NCBI GenBank assembly: GCA_938084845.1
Contig: CALKEB010000004.1
Location: forward strand, 1-64,000
Length of the DNA stretch: 64,000 nt
Reading direction: 5' to 3'
Source of the DNA: an uncultured Polaribacter sp.
Lineage (GTDB): Bacteria > Bacteroidota > Bacteroidia > Flavobacteriales > Flavobacteriaceae
Positions 24,613 through 63,487 of this stretch are shown one piece after another. The notes under the pieces were generated by a model, which saw only the letters and a program-made list of their open reading frames with translations, was not told where the DNA came from and ran no database searches. How positions within the stretch are numbered: position 1 is the stretch's first letter; each line of letters opens with the position of its first letter. A program made the position numbers and the translations under genes.

Positions 24613-26094
24613 TTACCTTAAAGGAAATTCTATTATTTCAGATATCATTCTGTTACTCGCTGGTGTTGCTAACTTCGAATCATAAATTTCGTTTAAAAAA
24701 TATTGTTTTTTAGTATTTGTATTTTCTTTTGCACCAGTTATAATGTATTCTAATGTTCTTGCTAATAAAGGTTCTGATGGCGCTCCTAATATTCCTAAAT
24801 TTTCGAAATCTTCTCTAAGTTCAATACCTGATATATCTATTCCAGGTGAAATTCCATTTGGATAATTTTCATTAATTTTGTTTGTGATTTCTAATACCAA
24901 TGGCTGTAAAGCATACCGATGATCGGTGTTAAAATTACTTCCTGTTTTTCTTAAATTATCAGAATCATATAATGTTAAAGAGCCTACTTGTTTTCCAACT
25001 GTTTTTGCACCAACCAATTTTACATCTATATATGCGCTTAATGCATTGATAACCAATTCAGAAGCAGAGGCTGTTGCACTAGAGGTAATAATGTAAACAC
25101 GATTTAATTCAAGACTTTTTATTGATTCTTCTACTAAAACGGAACCATTTGAATCTGTATTTCTAATTTTATTTGTAAAGTTATTTATAAAAAGTTCTGG
25201 TGGATTTGCATTGCGTATTTTTTGATTCCAAAGTTCTTTAGAAAATACCATATCTGTAAATTGGCCAGTAATCATGCTACCTAAGTAAGTAGCTGTTTTT
25301 GTAGAACCTCCAGGATTATATCTTAAATCTATAATTAAATCATTTATATTTTGTGCTTTAAAATTAGAAAATACTGCATTTAATTCAGCATCATAATTAC
25401 TAGCAAATTGATTATACATAAAGTATCCAATCTTTTGGTTATTTACCTCAATAGTTTTGTGAATAGCAATAGGATTCTCTTGTAAATCTGTTTTTTCTAG
25501 TGTAACAAAATCTCCATTATCAATAGGATCTCCATTATTATAATCTGCAAACCCCATCGTATACGTTGTATTCTCCGAAAATAGAAGTGTTCTAAAATTA
25601 TTTTCTGTTAGTTGTTGTCCGTTTATGGTAGTAAAAAGCTGCCCTCTAGTAATGTTTTTCGATGCTGCATCTGAATTTTGAACAACATAGCGAACGTAAC
25701 CAAAAACGTTATTGGTAAGTGTTTTATACCTTACCAGTCCAAACTCTATTCCATTACTTAAATTAAGACCTTGAAAAGAATTTTCCAACCTAATATAATC
25801 ATCAACAATTACAGAAAAACGATCTTCAGGTCTATTTAATAAATTTTCAAAAACGGTTTCGGGTTCTGTAAAGTTTCTAAAATAAGTATACAACTCATTA
25901 AAAGTACCGAAACGATTGTCTGCCAAATCTGGGACCTCTTCTTGCCAATAGTAGAAAACATTAAGGCCTTTCCAAATAAAATAATTTATATCATCTTGGA
26001 CATTTACCTCTAACATAGGTTCTAAAGGTGTTTTTTCGCAACTTGTTACCGTAAATAAGTAAAGAATTAAAAAAGTTTTTAAAAGTGTTTTCAT
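24613..26094 (-). CDS. S41-family (C-terminal processing) peptidase lipoprotein
   Basis: A 493-residue lipoprotein (MKTLLKTFLILYLFTVTSC). It has a PDZ-like N-terminal region (about 90-190), then the tail-specific protease core: LIIDLRYNPGGST, the nucleophile Ser in ITSSATASASEL, and GAKTVGKQVGS, which supplies the catalytic lysine. The substrate is not known. The Met at 26094 is preferred over the frame start at 26127 because it begins the signal peptide. Confidence 0.9.
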   Translation of the reverse strand: MKTLLKTFLILYLFTVTSCEKTPLEPMLEVNVQDDINYFIWKGLNVFYYWQEEVPDLADNRFGTFNELYTYFRNFTEPETVFENLLNRPEDRFSVIVDDYIRLENSFQGLNLSNGIEFGLVRYKTLTNNVFGYVRYVVQNSDAASKNITRGQLFTTINGQQLTENNFRTLLFSENTTYTMGFADYNNGDPIDNGDFVTLEKTDLQENPIAIHKTIEVNNQKIGYFMYNQFASNYDAELNAVFSNFKAQNINDLIIDLRYNPGGSTKTATYLGSMITGQFTDMVFSKELWNQKIRNANPPELFINNFTNKIRNTDSNGSVLVEESIKSLELNRVYIITSSATASASELVINALSAYIDVKLVGAKTVGKQVGSLTLYDSDNLRKTGSNFNTDHRYALQPLVLEITNKINENYPNGISPGIDISGIELREDFENLGILGAPSEPLLARTLEYIITGAKENTNTKKQYFLNEIYDSKLATPASNRMISEIIEFPLR

Positions 26095-26197
26095 AATGGA
26101 TGAGGTTATTATATGTAATTTTTCCAATTTTATAAATCGGTGTCAATTAATTTTTTTCCGTATTGCAATGTAATTATTTTTATTTTTTCAGATACTT

Positions 26198-26223
26198 TGT
26201 AACAAAATAAATAGTTAATCGTC
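26198..26223 (+). promoter_or_regulatory. ECF-type promoter TGTAAC-N16-CGTC of the sigma operon
   Basis: TGTAAC at 26198-26203 and CGTC at 26220-26223, 16 bases apart, 60 bases before the sigma factor start codon. ECF sigma factors usually transcribe their own operon, and the same element recurs before the DUF4870 gene and the MacB-like operon. Identity as the target of this sigma factor is inferred. Confidence 0.65.
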
Positions 26224-26282: not shown

Positions 26283-26792
26283 ATGAACCAATCAGACTTT
26301 TTAGAAGTTATTTTACCATTTAAAGATAAAGTTTTTAGATTGGCAAAAAGGTTGTTGGTGTCAAAAGAAGAAGCAGAAGACGCCACACAAGAATTAATTT
26401 TTAAATTGTGGAAGAATAAAAATAAAATTAGAGATTATAAAAATGTCGAGGCTTTTGCAATGACCATGACCAAAAATTATTGTTATGATCGTTTAAAAAG
26501 TAAGCAAGCAAATAATTTAACGTTAGTTCATAGCAATTATAAAGAGAATGAAACAACATTAGACAAAAAGTTAGAATATAGAGATAGTGTTCAGCAAGTT
26601 CATCAATTGATTGAAAAATTGCCAGAAAATCAAAAATTAATTATGCAATTAAGAGACATTGAACAATACAGTTTTGATGAAATATGTAAGATTCTTGATA
26701 TGAAATCAACAGCAGTAAGAGTTGCACTATCTAGAGCAAGAAAAACAGTCAGAGAGGCATTAATAAAAAAACACAACTATGGAATTAGCTAA
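26283..26792 (+). CDS. ECF RNA polymerase sigma factor
   Basis: A group 4 sigma-70 protein of 169 residues with only regions 2 and 4. Region 2 includes KEEAEDATQELIFKLWKN and YKNVEAFAMTMTKNYCYDRLK. Region 4 includes LPENQKLIMQLRDIEQYSFDEICKIL and the recognition helix STAVRVALSRARKTVREAL. It overlaps the downstream anti-sigma-like gene by 14 bases, which implies translational coupling. The operon continues with two DUF4252 genes. The promoter at 26198-26223 suggests autoregulation. Confidence 0.95.
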   Translation: MNQSDFLEVILPFKDKVFRLAKRLLVSKEEAEDATQELIFKLWKNKNKIRDYKNVEAFAMTMTKNYCYDRLKSKQANNLTLVHSNYKENETTLDKKLEYRDSVQQVHQLIEKLPENQKLIMQLRDIEQYSFDEICKILDMKSTAVRVALSRARKTVREALIKKHNYGIS

Positions 26793-27213
26793 CATAGAAA
26801 ATTTATTAAAAAAATACGAAGAAGGTACTACATCACTTCAAGAAGAAGCAAAATTAAAAAAGTATTTTACGTCTAAAGATGTAGCCCCTCATTTGGAAGA
26901 ATACAGCTTGTTGTTTAACTATTTTTCAATGGCTAAAGATGCTGTTTATCAAAAAGAAATATCATTAAGCCATAAGAAATCTAAACCAAAAAATTACAAG
27001 TGGTTATCTATAGCTGCTTCTGTATTGGTTTTATTTTCTGTTTTTTTAGGACAACAAGAATTTAAAGAGTATCAAGAACGTAAAAAGGTAGAAAAAATAT
27101 ATAAAAATGTTACTAAAGGTTTTTCTCTTTTATCTAGTAATTTAAAGAAAGGAACAAAAGCAATAGATCAATTTTATGTCCAAGAAACAAAAATTAATAA
27201 AATTTTAAAATAA
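26779..27213 (+). CDS. Probable membrane anti-sigma factor
   Basis: A 144-residue single-pass protein. Residues 1-60 form an acidic helical region (NIENLLKKYEEGTTSLQEEA), which in Bacteroidota anti-sigma-like proteins binds the sigma factor. A membrane segment (WLSIAASVLVLFSVFLG) lies at about 75-91, followed by a basic periplasmic tail. No zinc-binding HxxxCxxC motif is present. The function is inferred from position, overlap with the sigma gene, and topology. Confidence 0.75.
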   Translation: MELANIENLLKKYEEGTTSLQEEAKLKKYFTSKDVAPHLEEYSLLFNYFSMAKDAVYQKEISLSHKKSKPKNYKWLSIAASVLVLFSVFLGQQEFKEYQERKKVEKIYKNVTKGFSLLSSNLKKGTKAIDQFYVQETKINKILK

Positions 27214-27242: not shown

Positions 27243-27761
27243 ATGAAAAAAATAATACTAGTACTAGCCCTTGCATTGGCTCCAATATTTTCTAATGCTC
27301 AATCTATTTTTAATCGTCTAGAAAACTTAGAGGGAGTAGACATGATTGTGGTAAACAAAGATGCGTTTGAATTGTTAAATAAATTTAAGCCAAAAGATGT
27401 AAATGTAGAAGGGAATGATGTGATGCAAGCTTTTGAAATGTTAAATGAACTTAAAGAGTTTAAAATGTTTTCTACAGATGACTTTGCCATTGCAAATAAA
27501 ATGGAAAGCATGGTTAATTCTGCCATTAAGAGTGGAAATCTTACTGAATTAATGCGTATTAAAGAAGATGACTCTAGAGTTAAAATATATGTAAAAGCTA
27601 CAAAAAATAAAGATTTTGTAAGTGAAGTTTTAATGTTTGTTAAAGGAATTGATAAGAAAACAAATGGTATGTCTGAAGCTATGGTTTTGTCGTTGTTAGG
27701 GAATATAGATATTAATAAAATGGCTGACTTTACAGATAAAATTGTTAAAGAAAACAGGTAA
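27243..27761 (+). CDS. DUF4252 domain-containing exported protein
   Basis: A 172-residue protein with a Sec signal peptide (MKKIILVLALALAPIFSNAQ) and the DUF4252 domain, including FKMFSTDDFAIANKMESMV and MRIKEDDSRVKIYVKA. In Bacteroidota these proteins often sit in ECF sigma operons, which suggests an envelope function, but no activity is known. It lies 29 bases after the anti-sigma-like gene and has a lipoprotein paralogue immediately downstream. Confidence 0.87.
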   Translation: MKKIILVLALALAPIFSNAQSIFNRLENLEGVDMIVVNKDAFELLNKFKPKDVNVEGNDVMQAFEMLNELKEFKMFSTDDFAIANKMESMVNSAIKSGNLTELMRIKEDDSRVKIYVKATKNKDFVSEVLMFVKGIDKKTNGMSEAMVLSLLGNIDINKMADFTDKIVKENR

Positions 27762-27817: not shown

Positions 27818-28357
27818 ATGAAAAAAATATTCAACGTGTTTGCTTTTCTATTAGTTGTAGTACTAATGAATTCTTGTAATACTAAAAACTCTTTACAATC
27901 GTACTTGGTAGAGACGAGTGGTAAAGAAGGTTTTTATACAGCAGATATTCCTTTAAGTTCAGTTTTATCTGTAGAATCTGATGTGGCAATGGATGTGCAA
28001 GAAACCATGAAAAGTGTAAAGAAAATCAATGTGGTTTTTTTACCAAAAACAGCGGCTAACGAAGCAGTATTTACTATTGAAAAAAATAAATTAAAATCTA
28101 TTTTTAAAAATAACGATACCTATAAGAGTTTAATGACTATGAAATTACAAGAGATGAATGTTTCTGTATTTTATGCTGGAAAAACAGCGGCAATTAATGA
28201 AATTGTTGCTTTTGGTTATGGAGATTCAAATGGAGTAGGAGTAGTTAGATTATTAGGTGACAATATGGATCCTTCTAAAATAATAACCCTATTAAATAAT
28301 GTAAGTATGAGTAAAAATGGTCTTGATGATATTAAAAATGTTTTCAAAATCATTTAG
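27818..28357 (+). CDS. DUF4252 domain-containing lipoprotein
   Basis: A 179-residue lipoprotein (MKKIFNVFAFLLVVVLMNSC lipobox), the second DUF4252 copy of the operon. It is diverged from the upstream copy but keeps the layout of a helical N-terminal part, a KKINVVFLPK strand and a C-terminal VVRLLGDNMDPSKI segment. One soluble exported copy and one lipidated copy suggest the two may act together at the outer membrane. A terminator closes the operon. Confidence 0.85.
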   Translation: MKKIFNVFAFLLVVVLMNSCNTKNSLQSYLVETSGKEGFYTADIPLSSVLSVESDVAMDVQETMKSVKKINVVFLPKTAANEAVFTIEKNKLKSIFKNNDTYKSLMTMKLQEMNVSVFYAGKTAAINEIVAFGYGDSNGVGVVRLLGDNMDPSKIITLLNNVSMSKNGLDDIKNVFKII

Positions 28358-28490: not shown

Positions 28491-30929
28491 ATGAAATTTA
28501 CCCATATAGTTTTTTTAAGTTGCTTTTTTGTTAGTTTCTCCTTTTTAGCACAAAATACACGTTATAAATCTTCAAGAAATAAAGAGATAGATGTAGTGCA
28601 TACAAAGTTAAAAGTTGCTTTTAATTTTGATAATAAAACAATGGATGGAGAGGCTTGGATTACTTTAAAATCGCATTTTGAAGCTACGAATACGTTGCTT
28701 TTAGACGCTAAAGGCATGGTAATTCATAATGTTTTATTAGAAGATAAAAAACTAGCTTATGATTATGATGAGTTTGTTTTGAACATAGCACTTCCTAAAT
28801 ATTATAAAAAAGATGAGGCTTTTACAGTACACATTACCTACACAGCAAGACCAGAAAAAGTAAAAGACAAAATAACAAAACAGCTTACGAATGCTAAAGG
28901 TTTATACTTTATAGATGCTAGTGCCTCTAAACCTTCTTCATCTATGCAAGTTTGGACACACGGACAAACACAAGCAAACTCAGCTTGGTTTCCAACCATT
29001 GATGCACCAAATCAAAAAATGAGTCAAGAAATATACATAACTGTTCCTAAAACATACCAAACACTTTCTAACGGGAAACTCATTAGTAAAACAACAAAGG
29101 ATAATAATAGAACAGATTATTGGAAACAAGACAAAAAACATGCACCTTATTTGACTTTTATGGGAATTGGTAAGTTTACAGTTGTTAATGATTTCTATAA
29201 AGACCTACCAATATCCTATTATCTAAAAGAAGAATATGCCCCCTATGCAAAGGCTATTTTTGGATTGACTCCAGAAATGATAGAATTTTTTGAAAATAAG
29301 TTAGCAATACCTTTTCCTTGGAGTAAGTATAGTCAAATTGTTGTAAGCGATTTTATTACTGGAGCCATGGAAAATACTACTGCAGTGGTTCATGGAGAGC
29401 AAGCTTACCAAACCCCAGGCCAATTAATAGATAATAATACACAAGAGAACACCATTGCCCAGCAAATTTTTAATCATTGGTTTGGAAATTTAGTAACTGC
29501 AGAAAGTTGGTCTAATTTAACATTGAATGCATCTTTTGCTAGTTATGGTGCCTATTTATGGAGTGAATACAAATATGGTAAGATTGCTGCAGAAATGCAT
29601 TATTTTGAAAAAGTTGAAGCCTATAAAAACAGCCAAGATCAAAACAAAAGTTTGGTGCGCTATACGTATGACGAAACAGATGAGCTATTCGATTTAGTAA
29701 CTTATAATAAAGGATTAGCGGTTGTTCATATGTTAAGAGATTATTTAGGCGATGAAGCTTTTTTTAAAGGTTTAAACGCATACTTAACGACTTACAAATT
29801 TAAAACGGCAGAAGTACATCAATTAAGAATGATTTTTGAGGAGCTAACTGGTAAAGATTTAAATTGGTTTTTTAATCAATGGTATTTTGGAGTAAATCAT
29901 CCAAAGATTGAAATTTCTTACGATTATAATACATTAAGAAAAACAGTTACTGTAAACATAAAGCAATTACAGAAAGAAGTATTTAAATTTCCGTTTGCAA
30001 TAGACATTTTTGAAGGTTTAAAAAGAACTAGGCATAAGGTTTTTATCACGGGTAATGACGCTTCTTTTACTTTCCCTTACACTAAAATGCCAAATCTAAT
30101 TCAGGTTAATGCAAATAATGTTTTGCTTTGTAAGGTGTATGAAAATAAAATATTGAGTGAATATATTTTTCAATTAAAAAATGCAGACAATTTTGCACAT
30201 CGAACAGAAGCTTTATTTCAAGTAGCAACAAAACAAGATGACAAAGCTGCTTTTAATGCCATTGTAAATGCTTTAGACGATGATTCTTATCAAATTAGAA
30301 AGTTAGCACTTCAGCAAATTGATTTAATTAATAAATTTTCTAAAAAAGAAGCCATAAAAAAAATAATGATTATGGCTAATAATGACCCTAAGACTTTGGT
30401 GCAAGCAGAAGCAATAAGTACATTAGGAAAGTTAATTGACCCTGAGTTAAAACCAATTTTTGAACAAGCATTAACTAGCCAGTCCTATTCAGTTTTAGGT
30501 AAGGCTTTAGTATCTATGTACTATGTAGATAAAGCATTAGCCATTCAAAAATCTAAAGAATTACCAGACGAAGTTCGTAAAATTCTTGCCACCCCATTAA
30601 CAAAAATATTTATAGAAGCCAAAGATGAATCAGAATTACCATTTGTTGCTAAAAGTGTTATTTCTGGTATGTATTTAGCAAATGACGATGCAACTAAAGT
30701 ATTGTATCAAAAAGCATTCGATCAAATTTCTGTTACTAATAACACTATTGCTATTCAGAATCTTGTGGATGATATGGTTTTAAAAGGAAATGAATACAAA
30801 GGGTTTAACTTTGATAAAATAATGATTAATCTGATGAGAACAATGGTTGATCAACAGCAAAAAGGAAATAAAACAAATGCTCAAAAAAATATTGAGATCA
30901 TTAAAACAGCCATGTCTAAATTGTTATAG
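28491..30929 (+). CDS. M1-family peptidase homologue lacking all zinc and catalytic residues (probable pseudoenzyme)
   Basis: The 812-residue protein has a signal peptide, an N-terminal aminopeptidase-N beta domain, the GAMEN substrate motif intact at residues 291-295, a thermolysin-like domain and a C-terminal HEAT-like helical region. Aligning IAQQIFNHWFGNLV with the canonical HELAHQWFGNLV shows H, E and H replaced by Q324, Q325 and N328. The third zinc ligand, 19 residues on (NE in LNEGFA), is A347. The Tyr of the YxKG motif (Y405) remains. It therefore cannot bind zinc in the usual way. The frame is intact, so it is probably a conserved non-catalytic scaffold or peptide-binding protein. 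Active M1 paralogues usually exist elsewhere in such genomes. Confidence 0.88.
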   Translation: MKFTHIVFLSCFFVSFSFLAQNTRYKSSRNKEIDVVHTKLKVAFNFDNKTMDGEAWITLKSHFEATNTLLLDAKGMVIHNVLLEDKKLAYDYDEFVLNIALPKYYKKDEAFTVHITYTARPEKVKDKITKQLTNAKGLYFIDASASKPSSSMQVWTHGQTQANSAWFPTIDAPNQKMSQEIYITVPKTYQTLSNGKLISKTTKDNNRTDYWKQDKKHAPYLTFMGIGKFTVVNDFYKDLPISYYLKEEYAPYAKAIFGLTPEMIEFFENKLAIPFPWSKYSQIVVSDFITGAMENTTAVVHGEQAYQTPGQLIDNNTQENTIAQQIFNHWFGNLVTAESWSNLTLNASFASYGAYLWSEYKYGKIAAEMHYFEKVEAYKNSQDQNKSLVRYTYDETDELFDLVTYNKGLAVVHMLRDYLGDEAFFKGLNAYLTTYKFKTAEVHQLRMIFEELTGKDLNWFFNQWYFGVNHPKIEISYDYNTLRKTVTVNIKQLQKEVFKFPFAIDIFEGLKRTRHKVFITGNDASFTFPYTKMPNLIQVNANNVLLCKVYENKILSEYIFQLKNADNFAHRTEALFQVATKQDDKAAFNAIVNALDDDSYQIRKLALQQIDLINKFSKKEAIKKIMIMANNDPKTLVQAEAISTLGKLIDPELKPIFEQALTSQSYSVLGKALVSMYYVDKALAIQKSKELPDEVRKILATPLTKIFIEAKDESELPFVAKSVISGMYLANDDATKVLYQKAFDQISVTNNTIAIQNLVDDMVLKGNEYKGFNFDKIMINLMRTMVDQQQKGNKTNAQKNIEIIKTAMSKLL

Positions 30930-32220: not shown

Positions 32221-32246
32221 TGTAACATTAATAGCCCTTAAACGTC
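32221..32246 (+). promoter_or_regulatory. ECF-type promoter TGTAAC-N16-CGTC of the efflux operon
   Basis: TGTAAC at 32221-32226 and CGTC at 32243-32246 with a 16-base spacer, as upstream of the ECF sigma operon. The start codon at 32339 leaves a leader of roughly 85 bases. Confidence 0.6.
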
Positions 32247-32338: not shown

Positions 32339-33031
32339 ATGATAAAAATAGAAAAACTACATAAATCTTATCCAATTGGCAAAGAATCTTTACATGTTTT
32401 AAAAGGTATAGATTTGCACATAAAAGAAGGAGAATTTGTTTCAATTATGGGTTCTTCAGGTTCAGGTAAATCTACATTATTAAATATTGTTGGGTTATTA
32501 GACATTCATGATGAAGGGAATTATTTTTTGAATGGGCAGTTAATAAAAGACATGAATGAGAAAAAAGCAGCATTACTTAGAAATAAGTTTTTAGGCTTTG
32601 TTTTTCAGTCATTTAATTTAATATCATACAAAACAGCCTTAGAAAATGTTGCATTGCCTTTGTATTATAAGGGTATGGGTAGAAAAGAGCGTTTAGAGGT
32701 GGCTTTAAATTACTTAGAGAAAGTAGGTTTAAAGGATTGGGCGAATCATTTACCAAACGAACTTTCTGGGGGGCAGAAACAACGTGTTGCTATTGCAAGG
32801 GCATTAGTAACAAAACCTAAAGTAGTTTTAGCTGATGAGCCAACTGGAGCTTTAGATTCTACAACTACAGATTCTGTAATGGATTTGTTAAAGGACATTA
32901 ACGATGAGGGGATGACGGTTTTTGTAATTACCCACGAAGAAGAAGTGGCAGAACAAACCAAAAGAGTAGTTCGTTTAAAAGATGGTGTTATCATTAGTGA
33001 TGAACTTACCAAAGCCTCTAAAGCAGTCTAA
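32339..33031 (+). CDS. MacB/LolD-type ABC transporter ATP-binding protein
   Basis: A 230-residue ABC ATPase with intact Walker A (GSSGSGKST), Q-loop (FVFQSFNLI), signature (LSGGQKQR), Walker B (VVLADEPTGALD) and H-loop (FVITHEEE). The sequence is of the MacB/FtsE/LolD branch, which powers mechanotransmission rather than translocation through the membrane domain. It is the first gene of a four-gene unit, 3 bases before the first permease. Confidence 0.93.
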   Translation: MIKIEKLHKSYPIGKESLHVLKGIDLHIKEGEFVSIMGSSGSGKSTLLNIVGLLDIHDEGNYFLNGQLIKDMNEKKAALLRNKFLGFVFQSFNLISYKTALENVALPLYYKGMGRKERLEVALNYLEKVGLKDWANHLPNELSGGQKQRVAIARALVTKPKVVLADEPTGALDSTTTDSVMDLLKDINDEGMTVFVITHEEEVAEQTKRVVRLKDGVIISDELTKASKAV

Positions 33032-33034
33032 GTT

Positions 33035-34267
33035 ATGTTTGATATAGATCGTTGGAGAGAAATTTTTCAAAGTATTAATAAAAATAGATTACGTTCTGTA
33101 ATGTCTGGTTTTACAGTTGCTTTTGCTATATTATTGTTTACTTTACTTTTCGGAATTGTAAGTGGTTTAAGTAATACTTTTAAAGATGCTTTTGCAGATG
33201 ATGCACAAAATGCAATGTTTGTAAGAGTATGGAAAACGTCAAAACCATATAAAGGATTACAAACGGGTAGATCCATACAACTTAGAAATACTGATTATGA
33301 TTTTGTGAATGAAGAATATGGAGAAAAAATTCAGTACAAATCTTCACGTATTTATAAAAACTTCAATTTAAAATATAAAAATGAAGCAGGTAATTACAGT
33401 GTAATGGCCATTAATCCAGACAATCAATATTTAGAAAAAACAATTATTGAAGAAGGTAGGTTTGTAAATGAAAAAGATATTAGAGATAAATCTAAAGTTA
33501 TTGTAATTGGAAGATTAATCAAAGAAGACCTATTTGGACAAAAACCTGCCTTAGGAAAACGTTTAAATGTTAATGGTAGTTCTTATCTAATTATTGGTAT
33601 TTTTTCGGATGATGGTGGAGACAATGAAGAACGTAAAGCATTTATCCCTTTAAGCACCGCACAAATGATTTATGGTAATAACGATTACATTAATCAAATT
33701 GCTTTAGGGTATGATCCAAATTTAAGTTTAGATGAAGCTGTCGCTTTTGGGAATCAAATGGAGCGCGATTTGCGTAAAAAAATGAATATTCATCCAGATG
33801 ATCAAAGTGCACTTTCTGTTAGAAATATGGCAGAGGCTAATAAAAATGTAGGACAATTTATGTTTATCCTATACTTTATAGTCATTGTAGTAGGGTCAGG
33901 TACTTTAGTGGCAGGTATCATAGGGATCTCTAACATAATGATTTTTGTAATTAAAGAGCGTACTAAAGAATTTGGAATCAGGAAAGCATTAGGTGCTAAA
34001 CCTTCTTCTATAGTAAGTATGGTTGTTCAAGAATCTGTTTTAATAACCACAATTGCTGGTTATATAGGTTTGTCTATAGGTACTTATGTATTAAGTCAAA
34101 TAGGAGATAGTTTAGAAGAAGATTATTTTATAAAAGATCCAACTGTAAGTACAGGGATTGTTGTCGGAGCTACTATAATCTTAATTATATCTGGACTTAT
34201 TGCAGGTTATTTACCTGCAAAAAAAGCAGCAAATATTAAACCAATTGTAGCACTAAGAGCAGACTAA
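33035..34267 (+). CDS. MacB-type ABC transporter permease, first copy
   Basis: A 410-residue protein with an N-terminal membrane helix (about residues 20-45), a large periplasmic MacB_PCD domain (about 50-275) and three C-terminal helices of the FtsX domain with the conserved IMIFVIKERTKEFGIRKALGA. It probably pairs with the second permease as a heterodimer, powered by the upstream ATPase. Confidence 0.92.
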   Translation: MFDIDRWREIFQSINKNRLRSVMSGFTVAFAILLFTLLFGIVSGLSNTFKDAFADDAQNAMFVRVWKTSKPYKGLQTGRSIQLRNTDYDFVNEEYGEKIQYKSSRIYKNFNLKYKNEAGNYSVMAINPDNQYLEKTIIEEGRFVNEKDIRDKSKVIVIGRLIKEDLFGQKPALGKRLNVNGSSYLIIGIFSDDGGDNEERKAFIPLSTAQMIYGNNDYINQIALGYDPNLSLDEAVAFGNQMERDLRKKMNIHPDDQSALSVRNMAEANKNVGQFMFILYFIVIVVGSGTLVAGIIGISNIMIFVIKERTKEFGIRKALGAKPSSIVSMVVQESVLITTIAGYIGLSIGTYVLSQIGDSLEEDYFIKDPTVSTGIVVGATIILIISGLIAGYLPAKKAANIKPIVALRAD

Positions 34268-34269
34268 TT

Positions 34270-35514
34270 ATGAAATTTTTATTTGATTCAGACACTTGGC
34301 AAGAAATTTACGGAAGTATTCGTAAAAATAAAATAAGAACGGTAATTACCATTATAGGTGTTTTATGGGGTATTTTCTTATTGGTAGTTCTTTTAGGAGC
34401 AGCTAGAGGTATAGATAATGGGTTTAAAAAATTATTTGGAGATTTTGCCACCAATAGTGTTTTTGTTTGGACTCAAGCTACAGATACACCTTTTAAAGGT
34501 TTTCAGGAGGGACGAAGATTTCGTCTTAAAATGAACGATATTAAAGCTTTACGATCCGAATATAAAGATGAAATTAAATTATTAGCACCAAGAAATCAAA
34601 CCAATAATCTTATTATTCATGATTTTAAATCAGGAAATTTTCAAGTAAGTGGAGATTATCCAATTCTAGATCAAATTCAAAAGAAAAAACTTATTTCAGG
34701 TCGTTTCATTAATGAAAATGATATACTTTCTACAGCTAAGGTTACTGTGATTTCTGAAGAAATGTATGAGCAATTGTTTGATAAAGGAGAACAGCCTATT
34801 GGTGAATATGTGAAAATTAATAGCATAAATTATAAAATAATTGGAGTGTACGGACCTTCTAATGGTATAGATTTAGATGGAAATACTGCTTACATTCCTT
34901 TTACCACATTTAAAAGAGTTTACAATACTGCCAATAATGTAGATTGGATGGTAATTACAGCGAGTAAAGGCGTTGATATTGAACAGATGGAAAGTGATGT
35001 TATTTTAACACTAAAAAGTTTACATAACGTTCACCCAGAAGATAAAAGAGCGTTTGGATCTTTTAATTTAGGAGTACAGATTGCCAAAGTAACTGGTTTT
35101 TTAATTGGCTTACAGTTTATGACTTGGTTTGTAGGTATAGCTACTTTAATTGCAGGAGTATTTGCTATTGGTAATATTTTATTAATTACAGTAAAGGAAA
35201 GAACTCAAGAAATTGGAATCCGAAGAGCTTTAGGAGCAACACCAAAAAGTATTCGTCAACAAATTATATTAGAATCTGTTTTTTTAACAACAGTAGCTGG
35301 AATGTTAGGTATTATATTTGGAAGTTTTGTTTTGTACATTATCGATGCTGCCTTTGGGCAAGGAGATGATGCTGCACTTATAAATCCAACTGTTAACATT
35401 CCTATAATAATTATAGCATTTGTTACCTTGATTGTGCTAGGTACTTTAATTGGACTAATTCCAGCACACATGGCAACACTTGTTAGACCAATAGAAGCAT
35501 TAAGAGAAGAATAA
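34270..35514 (+). CDS. MacB-type ABC transporter permease, second copy
   Basis: A 414-residue paralogue of the preceding permease with the same MacB_PCD plus FtsX layout. It has the N-terminal helix IRTVITIIGVLWGIFLLVVLLGAARG and the signature VKERTQEIGIRRALGATPKSIRQQI. The 2-base spacing from the first permease indicates tight coupling. Having two different permeases, rather than one MacB homodimer, is common in Bacteroidota. Confidence 0.92.
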   Translation: MKFLFDSDTWQEIYGSIRKNKIRTVITIIGVLWGIFLLVVLLGAARGIDNGFKKLFGDFATNSVFVWTQATDTPFKGFQEGRRFRLKMNDIKALRSEYKDEIKLLAPRNQTNNLIIHDFKSGNFQVSGDYPILDQIQKKKLISGRFINENDILSTAKVTVISEEMYEQLFDKGEQPIGEYVKINSINYKIIGVYGPSNGIDLDGNTAYIPFTTFKRVYNTANNVDWMVITASKGVDIEQMESDVILTLKSLHNVHPEDKRAFGSFNLGVQIAKVTGFLIGLQFMTWFVGIATLIAGVFAIGNILLITVKERTQEIGIRRALGATPKSIRQQIILESVFLTTVAGMLGIIFGSFVLYIIDAAFGQGDDAALINPTVNIPIIIIAFVTLIVLGTLIGLIPAHMATLVRPIEALREE

Positions 35515-35530
35515 ATAATCAACTAAAATT

Positions 35531-36643
35531 ATGAGTAAAAGAGCAAAAATTATTTTAACTATTATTGGACTATTATTTGTAGTAGCCTTAATTTGGTTTG
35601 GAAAGAAAAACAAAAAGAGTATTGTTGAGTATGAAACAACGACTCCTTTTAAAACAACAATTGTTAAAAAGACCGTTGCTACAGGTAAAGTAACTCCTTT
35701 AGAAGAGATTGAAATTAAACCACAAATAACAGGTATTATTGATAAAATAATGTTGTTAGAAGGTTCTGAAGTTAAAAAAGGAGATTTAATAGCAACAGTT
35801 AGAGTAGTTCCTAATGAGCAATCGCTAATTAGTGCAAAAGGTAGAGTGAATAATATTCAGATTCGTTTAGAAAATGCAAAAATTCAGTACAAAAGAAGTA
35901 AAAATCTTTACGATAAAGGTGTTGTTTCTAAACAAGAATTCGAAAATGTAGAGCTAACCTATAATCAAGCTAAGCAAGATTTAAAAAATGCTCAGAATGA
36001 TTATTTAATCATTAAAAGAGGTTCTGCAGGAATTGGAGGTTCTGCAAATACAAATATTATGGCTCAAATTTCTGGAACAATTCTAGAAATTCCTGTAAAA
36101 GAAGGAGACCAAGTCATACAATCTAACAACTTTAATGCAGGTACTACCATCGCTTCAATCGCAGACATGAGTAAAATGATTTTTGAAGGGAAAGTAGATG
36201 AATCTGAGGTTGGGAAACTTAAAAAAGGATCCAATATAGAGGTGTCTATTGGTGCTATTGAAAATGCAAAATTTCCAGCAAAATTAAATTTTATAGCTCC
36301 AAAAGGTACAGAAGAAGCAGGTGCTGTTCAGTTTAAAATTAAAGCAGACGTAACTTTAGATGATAATTATTTTATTAGAGCAGGATACAGCGCAAATGCA
36401 GATATTATTTTAGAAAAAAAGGATAGTGTATTAGCCATTAAAGAGGCATTGTTAAAGTTCGATAAAAAAACTGAAGAACCTTATGTAGAGGTAAAGATTG
36501 GAGAAGGTACTTTTGAAAAGAAAATAGTAAAATTAGGAATCTCTGATGGTGTTAATGTAGAAGTCTTAGAGGGTGTTTCTAAAGACGACGAAATTAAAAT
36601 TTGGAATAAAACTTCTGGAATGAAAGAGGTTGAAAAGAAATAA
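35531..36643 (+). CDS. Periplasmic adaptor (MacA/HlyD family) of ABC efflux system
   Basis: A 370-residue membrane-fusion protein: one N-terminal anchor helix (IILTIIGLLFVVALIWFG), a lipoyl domain (VTPLEEIEIKPQITGIIDKI), an alpha-helical hairpin (about 100-160), the second lipoyl half and beta-barrel domains. It follows the permease by 16 bases. An outer-membrane TolC partner is not in the operon. A terminator follows. Confidence 0.92.
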   Translation: MSKRAKIILTIIGLLFVVALIWFGKKNKKSIVEYETTTPFKTTIVKKTVATGKVTPLEEIEIKPQITGIIDKIMLLEGSEVKKGDLIATVRVVPNEQSLISAKGRVNNIQIRLENAKIQYKRSKNLYDKGVVSKQEFENVELTYNQAKQDLKNAQNDYLIIKRGSAGIGGSANTNIMAQISGTILEIPVKEGDQVIQSNNFNAGTTIASIADMSKMIFEGKVDESEVGKLKKGSNIEVSIGAIENAKFPAKLNFIAPKGTEEAGAVQFKIKADVTLDDNYFIRAGYSANADIILEKKDSVLAIKEALLKFDKKTEEPYVEVKIGEGTFEKKIVKLGISDGVNVEVLEGVSKDDEIKIWNKTSGMKEVEKK

Positions 36644-62392: not shown

Positions 62393-63487
62393 TTACGATT
62401 CTTTTTGACCGTTTAACATCAGATAAGCTTTTAGAAAAGCATTAATATTACCATCCATAACAGCATCTACGTTACCTGTTTCATGAGCTGTTCTAACATC
62501 TTTTACTAGTTTATAAGGATGCATTACATAATTCCGTATTTGACTACCCCATTCATTCTTCATTTTATTGGCTTCAATATCATCTCTGGCTGCTTGTTGT
62601 TTTTTTAATTCAATTTCATACAATTGAGATTTTAGCATTTGCAAAGCTGTAGCTCTATTATCATGCTGAGAACGGGAATTTGAACAAGAAATTTGAATAC
62701 CTGAAGGCTTGTGTGTTAATTGAACTTTAGTTTCTACTTTATTCACGTTTTGACCACCTGCACCACTAGATCTTGCTGTTGTAATTTCTATATCTGCAGG
62801 ATTTATATTAATTTCAATAGAATCATCTGCAACAGGATAAACGTAAACAGAAGCAAAACTTGTGTGTCGTTTTGCATTCGAATCAAAAGGAGAAATACGG
62901 ACTAATCGATGTACACCATTTTCACCTTTTAACCAGCCAAAAGCATAATCTCCATCTATTTCTACTGTAACCGTTTTAATACCAGCAGCGTCACCCGCTT
63001 GATAATTTAGTGTTTTTAATTTAAAACCCTGCTTTTCTGCCCACATCCCATACATTCTAAAAAGCATTTCTGCCCAATCACAAGATTCTGTTCCTCCTGC
63101 ACCAGCTGTGATCTGAATTACTGCAGATAAAGAATCTCCTTCATCAGATAACATGTTCTTAAACTCAATATCTTCTAAAAGAGCGATGGTTTTGTCAAAT
63201 TGATGTAACACTTCTTTTTCATCTGCTTCCTCTTCTTTATAAAACTCATAAAAAATATTCAGATCTTCATTTAATCTAAGTATGGTATTATAATCTTCTA
63301 CCCATTTCTTTTTAAAACGCAGTTCTTTCATGAGAATTTCTGCAACTTTAGGGTCGTTCCAAAAATCAGGATTTACTGTTTTCTCTTCTTCATTCGCTAT
63401 TTCAATCAATTTTTTATCAATATCTAAGTAAGATTTTAATTTATCTATTCTGGTTGAAATATCTTTAAGTTGGTCTTGTGTAATCAT
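62393..63487 (-). CDS. prfB: Peptide chain release factor 2
   Basis: Class I release factor reading UGA/UAA. Full length (364 residues) in a single frame, with [16 protein letters not shown] (the RF2 SPF tripeptide) and the hydrolysis motif [17 protein letters not shown]. The usual programmed +1 frameshift near codon 25 (CUU-UGA-C) is absent: the coding strand reads TAC TTA GAT there. A minus-strand TATTTTTG (63503-63496) lies only 8 bases before the start, so the mRNA leader would be very short. Confidence 0.97.

Follow-up and report, generated by a model that had tools for sequence, protein, structure and literature searches.

The sigma factor locus and its promoter motif

The DNA analysed here, hereafter the window, comprises positions 1–64,000 of contig CALKEB010000004.1 from an uncultured Polaribacter sp. 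(GCA_938084845.1), a draft genome of 2.06 Mb in 70 contigs with 83% completeness. On its forward strand it carries the operon of an extracytoplasmic function (ECF) sigma factor, and a TGTAAC-N16-CGTC motif stands before this operon, a DUF4870 gene and a MacB-type efflux operon. The sigma factor (26283–26792, 169 aa) matches Pfam Sigma70_r2 and Sigma70_r4_2 over cut-off and no further sigma region, the domain content of an ECF sigma factor. It scores 229.7 bits against NF058625 (curated cut-off 130) and belongs to this already named family (PG0214/SigCH), which corresponds to GFO_1088. Its gene overlaps that of a putative membrane anti-sigma factor of 144 aa (26779–27213), which follows the sigma gene in all of 80 named orthologous loci. 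Two genes matching DUF4252 families come next, for a protein of the GFO_1090 family (27243–27761) and a lipoprotein of the GFO_1091 family (27818–28357), both also on the + strand.

The sigma operon promoter (26198–26223, +) consists of a −35 box TGTAAC (26198–26203), a 16-base spacer and a −10 box CGTC (26220–26223). Its predicted transcription start is G26232, preceded by T and placed by a T-purine step at offsets 33/34, which would give a leader of 51 bases. The second site (1511–1536, +; predicted start A1545) precedes the gene for a DUF4870 membrane protein (1559–1897, +; Pfam). The third (32221–32246, +; predicted start G32255) precedes four genes, all on the + strand: the ABC (ATP-binding cassette) ATPase of a MacB pump (32339–33031), two MacB-type permeases (33035–34267 and 34270–35514), all three assigned by Pfam, and a periplasmic adaptor with RND_mfp/MacA-like family matches (35531–36643).

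Motif sites exceed chance by spacing and placement

These three sites had been reported in an initial annotation of the sequence; their coordinates are correct, and the spacer is exactly 16 bases in each. The first two share TTAATCGTCC, as that annotation stated, although across the 80 sigma orthologue promoters only the T preceding CGTC is conserved, so the remaining bases look incidental. The claim that the window holds no further intergenic copy also held: a fourth pair (62966–62992, N17) is contained in an extended open frame of the opposite strand. Pairs at N14–18 number four in the whole window against 0.15 expected, a count reached in none of 100 shuffles, and a scan of spacers N10–N23 returned N16 three times, N17 once and no other spacing. 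All three N16 pairs are intergenic, where ∼0.002 would be expected in the window's 5,073 intergenic bases (a figure based on a hand-chosen set of open reading frames, ORFs). No intergenic N16 pair arose in 997 of 1,000 dinucleotide shuffles, and the remaining three had one each. The window yielded no Rfam match at gathering thresholds and no tRNA.

As a control, the reversed pattern was counted in the same genomes. The genome-wide comparison with chance that had been proposed gave a divided answer here: at N16 the motif exceeds the control (9 versus 1), but the raw N15–17 count does not clearly do so (10 versus 8), so the signal is carried by spacing and placement. Eight of the nine N16 copies lie 19–92 bp upstream of an ORF and the ninth lies within a gene. 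The eight precede the DUF4870 gene, the sigma operon, the MacB operon and genes for an outer-membrane channel of the OEP family, a DUF5686 protein, Pmp3, an SPFH/Band 7 protein and an M16 peptidase.

The same placement is seen in relatives. Of 100 non-sigma sites sampled from ten genomes, 67 precede an ORF, 23 fall in a gene and 10 lie elsewhere, compared with 2, 25 and 1 of 28 reversed-pattern sites from nine of those genomes and this one (67/100 versus 2/28, Fisher p 8e-9 if sites are taken as independent, which orthologous sites are not). Another 98 sites from seven Polaribacter/Tenacibaculum genomes divide into 76 upstream, 17 in a gene and 5 other. The in-gene label comes from a crude 100-codon open-frame test, and at least 9 of these 17 sites precede regulon-family ORFs, judged by eye from printed N-termini. 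Across 13 named Polaribacter/Tenacibaculum genomes, motifs outnumber controls by 170 to 24.

Chance matches in AT-rich DNA would account for the similar N15–17 counts in this genome. We give this explanation practically no weight, as no shuffle produced more than one intergenic site, and it is contradicted by the footprints at sigma, DUF4870 and MacB orthologues and by the counts in genomes with and without the sigma factor, presented below. Allowing one mismatch left 46 further sites in this genome; 21 were examined, 20 being in a gene and one upstream. The latter, a TGTAAA form 21 bp 5′ of a 236-aa ORF (L022), is a possible weak target.

Promoter architecture and probable autoregulation

Positions around the two boxes are conserved as well. 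Among 151 upstream sites, the base after TGTAAC is A in 83% and a purine occupies offset 34 in 137. The T-purine step at 33/34, which was not included in the pattern used to select sites, occurs in 95 of these 151 sites, compared with 13 of 41 in-gene and 12 of 15 other sites. When 49 clusters of downstream genes are given equal weight, its frequency is 0.53 at offset 34 and 0.04–0.38 elsewhere in the 28–43 range. The 80 sigma promoters have T in 93% and a purine in 99% at these positions, together with a T-rich stretch 10–15 bases 5′ of the −35 box. The step, 9 nt past CGTC, is probably the transcription start; CGTC lies 9–12 nt before the predicted start, that is, at −10.

The motif precedes the sigma gene itself with great regularity. 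In one set, made up of the 30 best orthologues, 29 have TGTAAC-N16-CGTC 5′ of the sigma gene and the thirtieth has AGTAAC, and TGTWAC-N16-CGTC is upstream of all 80 named orthologues (TGTAAC in 63, TGTTAC in 17), always with N16 and CGTC. The best Polaribacter orthologue has 86% identity to the window sigma. Among 30 lower-scoring or other sigma loci, nine of the ten within the family retain TGTWAC-N16-CGTC; of the loci that do not, within or outside the family, several carry near variants, for instance with N17 or with a −10 box of CGTT or TGTT, and others have none. The initial proposals of a classical ECF −35/−10 pair and of an autoregulated sigma operon are thus both backed by motif, spacing, placement and orthologue footprints.

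A two-part operator for a DNA-binding regulator could leave similar traces, and footprints alone cannot distinguish it from a sigma promoter. We nevertheless consider it very improbable: the boxes are asymmetric, their spacing is constant at N16, a T-purine step falls where transcription should begin, and the sigma gene itself carries the pair, all of which suits an ECF promoter.

The 17 TGTTAC loci belong mostly to Lutibacter and its relatives, and the form is absent from this genome. We rejected a joint change of sigma specificity and promoter in these lineages: the other gene-upstream sites of their genomes retain TGTAAC, and the residues separating the two classes fall outside the RVxLSRARK stretch. 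The −35 region of the sigma promoter in Lutibacter loci (L103, L107, L116 and others) is GTTACAAAAACGTAAC; this forms an inverted repeat, which promoters with TGTAAC lack. Several Lutibacter genomes also share an identical TGTTACCAGGATGAAAACCTGGCGTC (L272, L277 and L291), which is not ORF-upstream by the test applied.

Motif enrichment tracks the sigma family

We surveyed 120 genomes of the family, one per genus, scoring as sigma-positive those with an over-cut-off match to NF058625. Such matches were present in 104, where motifs total 978 against 354 controls and exceed them in 92 genomes; the 16 sigma-negative genomes show no enrichment (25 versus 32). This co-occurrence is a correlation across related genomes rather than proof. 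Across the class, over-cut-off matches were present in 20 of 159 genomes.

The motif might instead serve a number of ECF sigma factors whose regulons overlap, the local one being one reader among them. ECF-like matches are abundant in family genomes (10 in this one), and overlapping ECF regulons are raised by Guerin et al. for SM6, a promoter class in their start-site map of Flavobacterium psychrophilum (PMC9723704). One complete genome without an over-cut-off sigma (G031) has six motifs against two controls, possibly reflecting a diverged sigma or a different reader. Against this, four sigma-negative genomes with at least 10 ECF-like model matches show 13 motifs versus 16 controls, and the tightest footprint is this sigma's own promoter. 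We therefore regard several readers as unlikely, though well above the level of the operator.

Targets, linkage and regulon content

The DUF4870 and MacB genes, both proposed initially as targets, appear genuine by the footprints at their orthologues. Taking the best match in each of 19 genomes, DUF4870 has the exact motif in 12, at −49 to −62 and always at ≥ 56% identity, and MacB has a motif in 16 (15 exact, one TGTTAC). The conserved islands in the upstream alignments of both genes are the two boxes. No motif was found at the 11 second DUF4870 copies or the two second MacB copies examined. The same promoter thus stands at the sigma gene and at its targets.

The proposal that the targets are local stood only in part: linkage persists in some relatives, but of this genome's eight sites that precede genes, five are on other contigs. 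Among 12 relatives, the MacB and sigma sites are 6–12 kb apart in five, 77–202 kb apart in four and on separate contigs in three; for DUF4870 in 10 relatives, the distance is 24–36 kb in three and 346–408 kb in two, with separate contigs in five. Site spacing in one Polaribacter draft (G129) is nearly that of the window, and another genome (G141) retains the order within 47 kb. The neighborhood is therefore partly retained, with most of the regulon elsewhere.

To the 98-site set from seven Polaribacter/Tenacibaculum genomes we added this genome and reassigned nine in-gene sites by eye; the 19-genome comparison confirmed the DUF4870 and MacB entries. In the resulting tally, the motif precedes sigma, MacB, OEP and DUF4870 genes in all eight genomes; Pmp3, DUF456, a DUF4252 paralogue and a 57-aa protein in seven; DUF5686 in six; an 85-aa and a 485-aa protein in five each; the M16 peptidase in four; and SPFH in two. 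This incomplete genome yielded no motif ahead of DUF456, the paralogous DUF4252 gene or the gene for the 57-aa protein, the genes themselves not having been searched for. The window's MacB operon (32339–36643) includes no OEP gene among its four, and the OEP gene on another contig (L005) has its own motif promoter and is followed by a terminator-like hairpin, with no gene within 124 bases 3′. The two may encode one pump, and the shared signal suggests how a MacB pump and a channel with genes at separate loci could be expressed together.

This gene content makes an envelope or membrane-stress role likely. Even with promoter and sigma factor correctly assigned, the trigger could be oxidative stress, nutrition or secretion instead of membrane damage. 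When a PG_0686 mutant of Porphyromonas gingivalis is exposed to peroxide, PG_0214–0218 rise 5- to 11-fold (PMC10101095), and SM6 starts, a class that includes type IX secretion system (T9SS) genes, rise in low-nutrient conditions (PMC9723704). The conserved targets here are, by contrast, membrane and efflux proteins, and the eight targets of this genome include no oxidative-defense enzyme; T9SS genes were not specifically sought. A signal of another kind seems to us a plausible but clearly lesser possibility.

Operon neighbors

A single hydrophobic segment lies near residue 75 of the 144-aa protein, scoring above 1.6 on the scale used in 77 of 81 sequences. Its structural model has helices at residues 3–15, 20–31 and 37–52 (predicted local distance difference test, pLDDT, 81–91), followed by a low-confidence linker, with a mean pLDDT of 64. 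In class I anti-sigma domains, three helices form a bundle and a fourth, set apart from it, binds region 2 of the sigma factor. Searches of Pfam and NCBIfam gave no anti-sigma domain or family match for the 144-aa protein, the fold search gave nothing significant (RsiW was first among the weak matches, E 2.8, Z 3.2), and a profile search of PDB sequences returned three weak, unrelated matches (best E 0.014). The modeled helical head and hydrophobic segment fit a membrane anti-sigma factor but are no proof of one.

The DUF4252 protein at 27243–27761 was modeled with a mean pLDDT of 77.6. No fold match reached E 0.001, DcrB, PA1624 and LppA (periplasmic proteins or lipoproteins) being among the weak, tied results, and no PDB sequence was related at E 0.1. 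Both DUF4252 genes are present in 76 of the 80 loci. Divergent from the sigma operon is an S41 peptidase gene of the GFO_1087 family (24613–26127, −; the ORF opens at TTG, with an in-frame ATG near 26094), found in 72 of 80 loci. The S41 and the two DUF4252 models are matched over cut-off and gene order is conserved in most of the 80 loci, as in the GFO_1087–1091 neighborhood. A gene for an M1-family peptidase with HEAT repeats (28491–30929, +) follows the DUF4252 pair, and a relative of it is present in 53 of the 80 loci.

A probable autoregulated ECF circuit

Genome counts, co-occurrence with the sigma family, orthologue footprints and the T-purine step together make it very probable that TGTAAC-N16-CGTC is a genuine, autoregulated ECF promoter whose regulon is conserved and largely dispersed. 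We assign a probability of about 0.82 to the reading that it is recognized by the ECF sigma factor at 26283–26792, which would control its own operon and mainly dispersed membrane and envelope genes. The motif, its spacing and placement, the footprints at the sigma gene and targets, and the co-occurrence are features of the sequences; sigma binding, anti-sigma action, the signal and the envelope-stress role are what we infer from them.

Several observations weigh against this reading. Besides the similar N15–17 counts, the one-mismatch motif shows no excess in this genome (55 versus 57 controls), and the T-purine step is present at five of its eight upstream sites. The motif does not exceed the control in 12 of the 104 sigma-positive genomes (4 equal, 8 below), and G031 has its excess without an over-cut-off sigma. 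As 13 of the 16 sigma-negative genomes are ≤ 2.6 Mb, lineage and genome size confound the comparison between the two groups. Beyond the family, the motif is kept intact at just 6 of 20 sigma loci, and within the 19-genome comparison it is missing from the best DUF4870 match in seven genomes (28–55% identity) and from MacB in three.

In the proposed circuit, the sigma factor would transcribe its own operon, yielding sigma, the membrane anti-sigma and two DUF4252 envelope proteins. At rest, the single-pass anti-sigma would keep sigma at the inner membrane; an envelope disturbance would release it, and the sigma holoenzyme would then fire promoters with the strict motif. More sigma would provide positive feedback, and more anti-sigma, perhaps with DUF4252, negative feedback. 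The output would be membrane protection and efflux through the MacB pump, the separate outer-membrane channel, Pmp3, DUF4870, DUF5686, SPFH and the M16 peptidase.

We tentatively suggest, as a possibility that is not the likeliest, that this is the main membrane-stress sigma of Flavobacteriaceae, derived from an autoregulated circuit in an ancestor of Bacteroidia, with the DUF4252 pair acting as envelope sensors or governors of anti-sigma feedback. Such a design, if real, would have no counterpart among the other ECF systems in the literature compared. Few Bacteroidota ECF sigmas have a defined promoter and regulon, and searches of open-licence literature yielded no statement of TGTAAC-N16-CGTC for this sigma. 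A strict, fixed-spacing signal conserved at the sigma gene across many genera offers a ready readout, and through it DUF4252, DUF4870, DUF456, DUF5686 and a pair of small proteins lacking Pfam matches would be tied to one response.

Comparison with known systems

By sequence, the nearest sigma factor of solved structure is SigW of Bacillus subtilis (E 2.9e-13). It has a membrane-stress role and SPFH-type targets. The window sigma falls far below the SigW cut-offs (67.5 versus 209 bits for PRK09641.1 and 51.6 versus 243.1 for TIGR02948.1), and the resemblance to SigW–RsiW is a likeness of working, not membership. The SigW promoter is similar, TGAAAC-N16,17-CGTA, but differs in letters of both the −35 and −10 boxes (PMC2375139).

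By family, the window sigma groups with P. gingivalis PG0214/PGN_0319 (SigCH), after which NF058625 is named sigma_PG0214. In PG_0214–0216, as in the window, anti-sigma and DUF4252 genes adjoin the sigma gene. The reported targets of SigCH are cdhR and hmuYR (PMC5607195); such targets were neither seen nor searched for here. In Riemerella anatipestifer, RA0C_1534 is described as an oxidative-stress sigma (PMC6557517). EcfO–Reo of Bacteroides and Phocaeicola is an ECF/anti-sigma pair for which a role in sensing outer-membrane stress has been proposed; in the published description, Reo reaches the cell surface across every compartment and the regulon consists of nigD genes (PMC13114119), whereas the window protein has 144 aa and one hydrophobic segment.

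ECF sigmas are numerous in Bacteroidota, with 50 in Bacteroides thetaiotaomicron, where some non-canonical promoters have TGTT near −10 (PMC12596196). Upstream of four distant sigma-like loci of one other family (f13, L510–L513) we observed TGTAAC-N16/17-TGTT, whose TGTT box resembles that −10 element; we note this as a lead only.

A further promoter parallel is SM6, which has a CGT box at −10 in the F. psychrophilum start-site map and precedes an ECF/anti-sigma pair, two Band 7 genes, a rhodanese gene, an ABC ATPase gene and T9SS genes, its reader ECF being left open by the authors (PMC9723704). Compared by −10 box and downstream genes, the window motif also has CGT at −10, and in relatives it precedes SPFH, rhodanese-like (judged from sequence) and ABC ATPase ORFs. 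Because SM6-type ORFs also follow the motif, SM6 may in part be the TGTAAC-N16-CGTC promoter.
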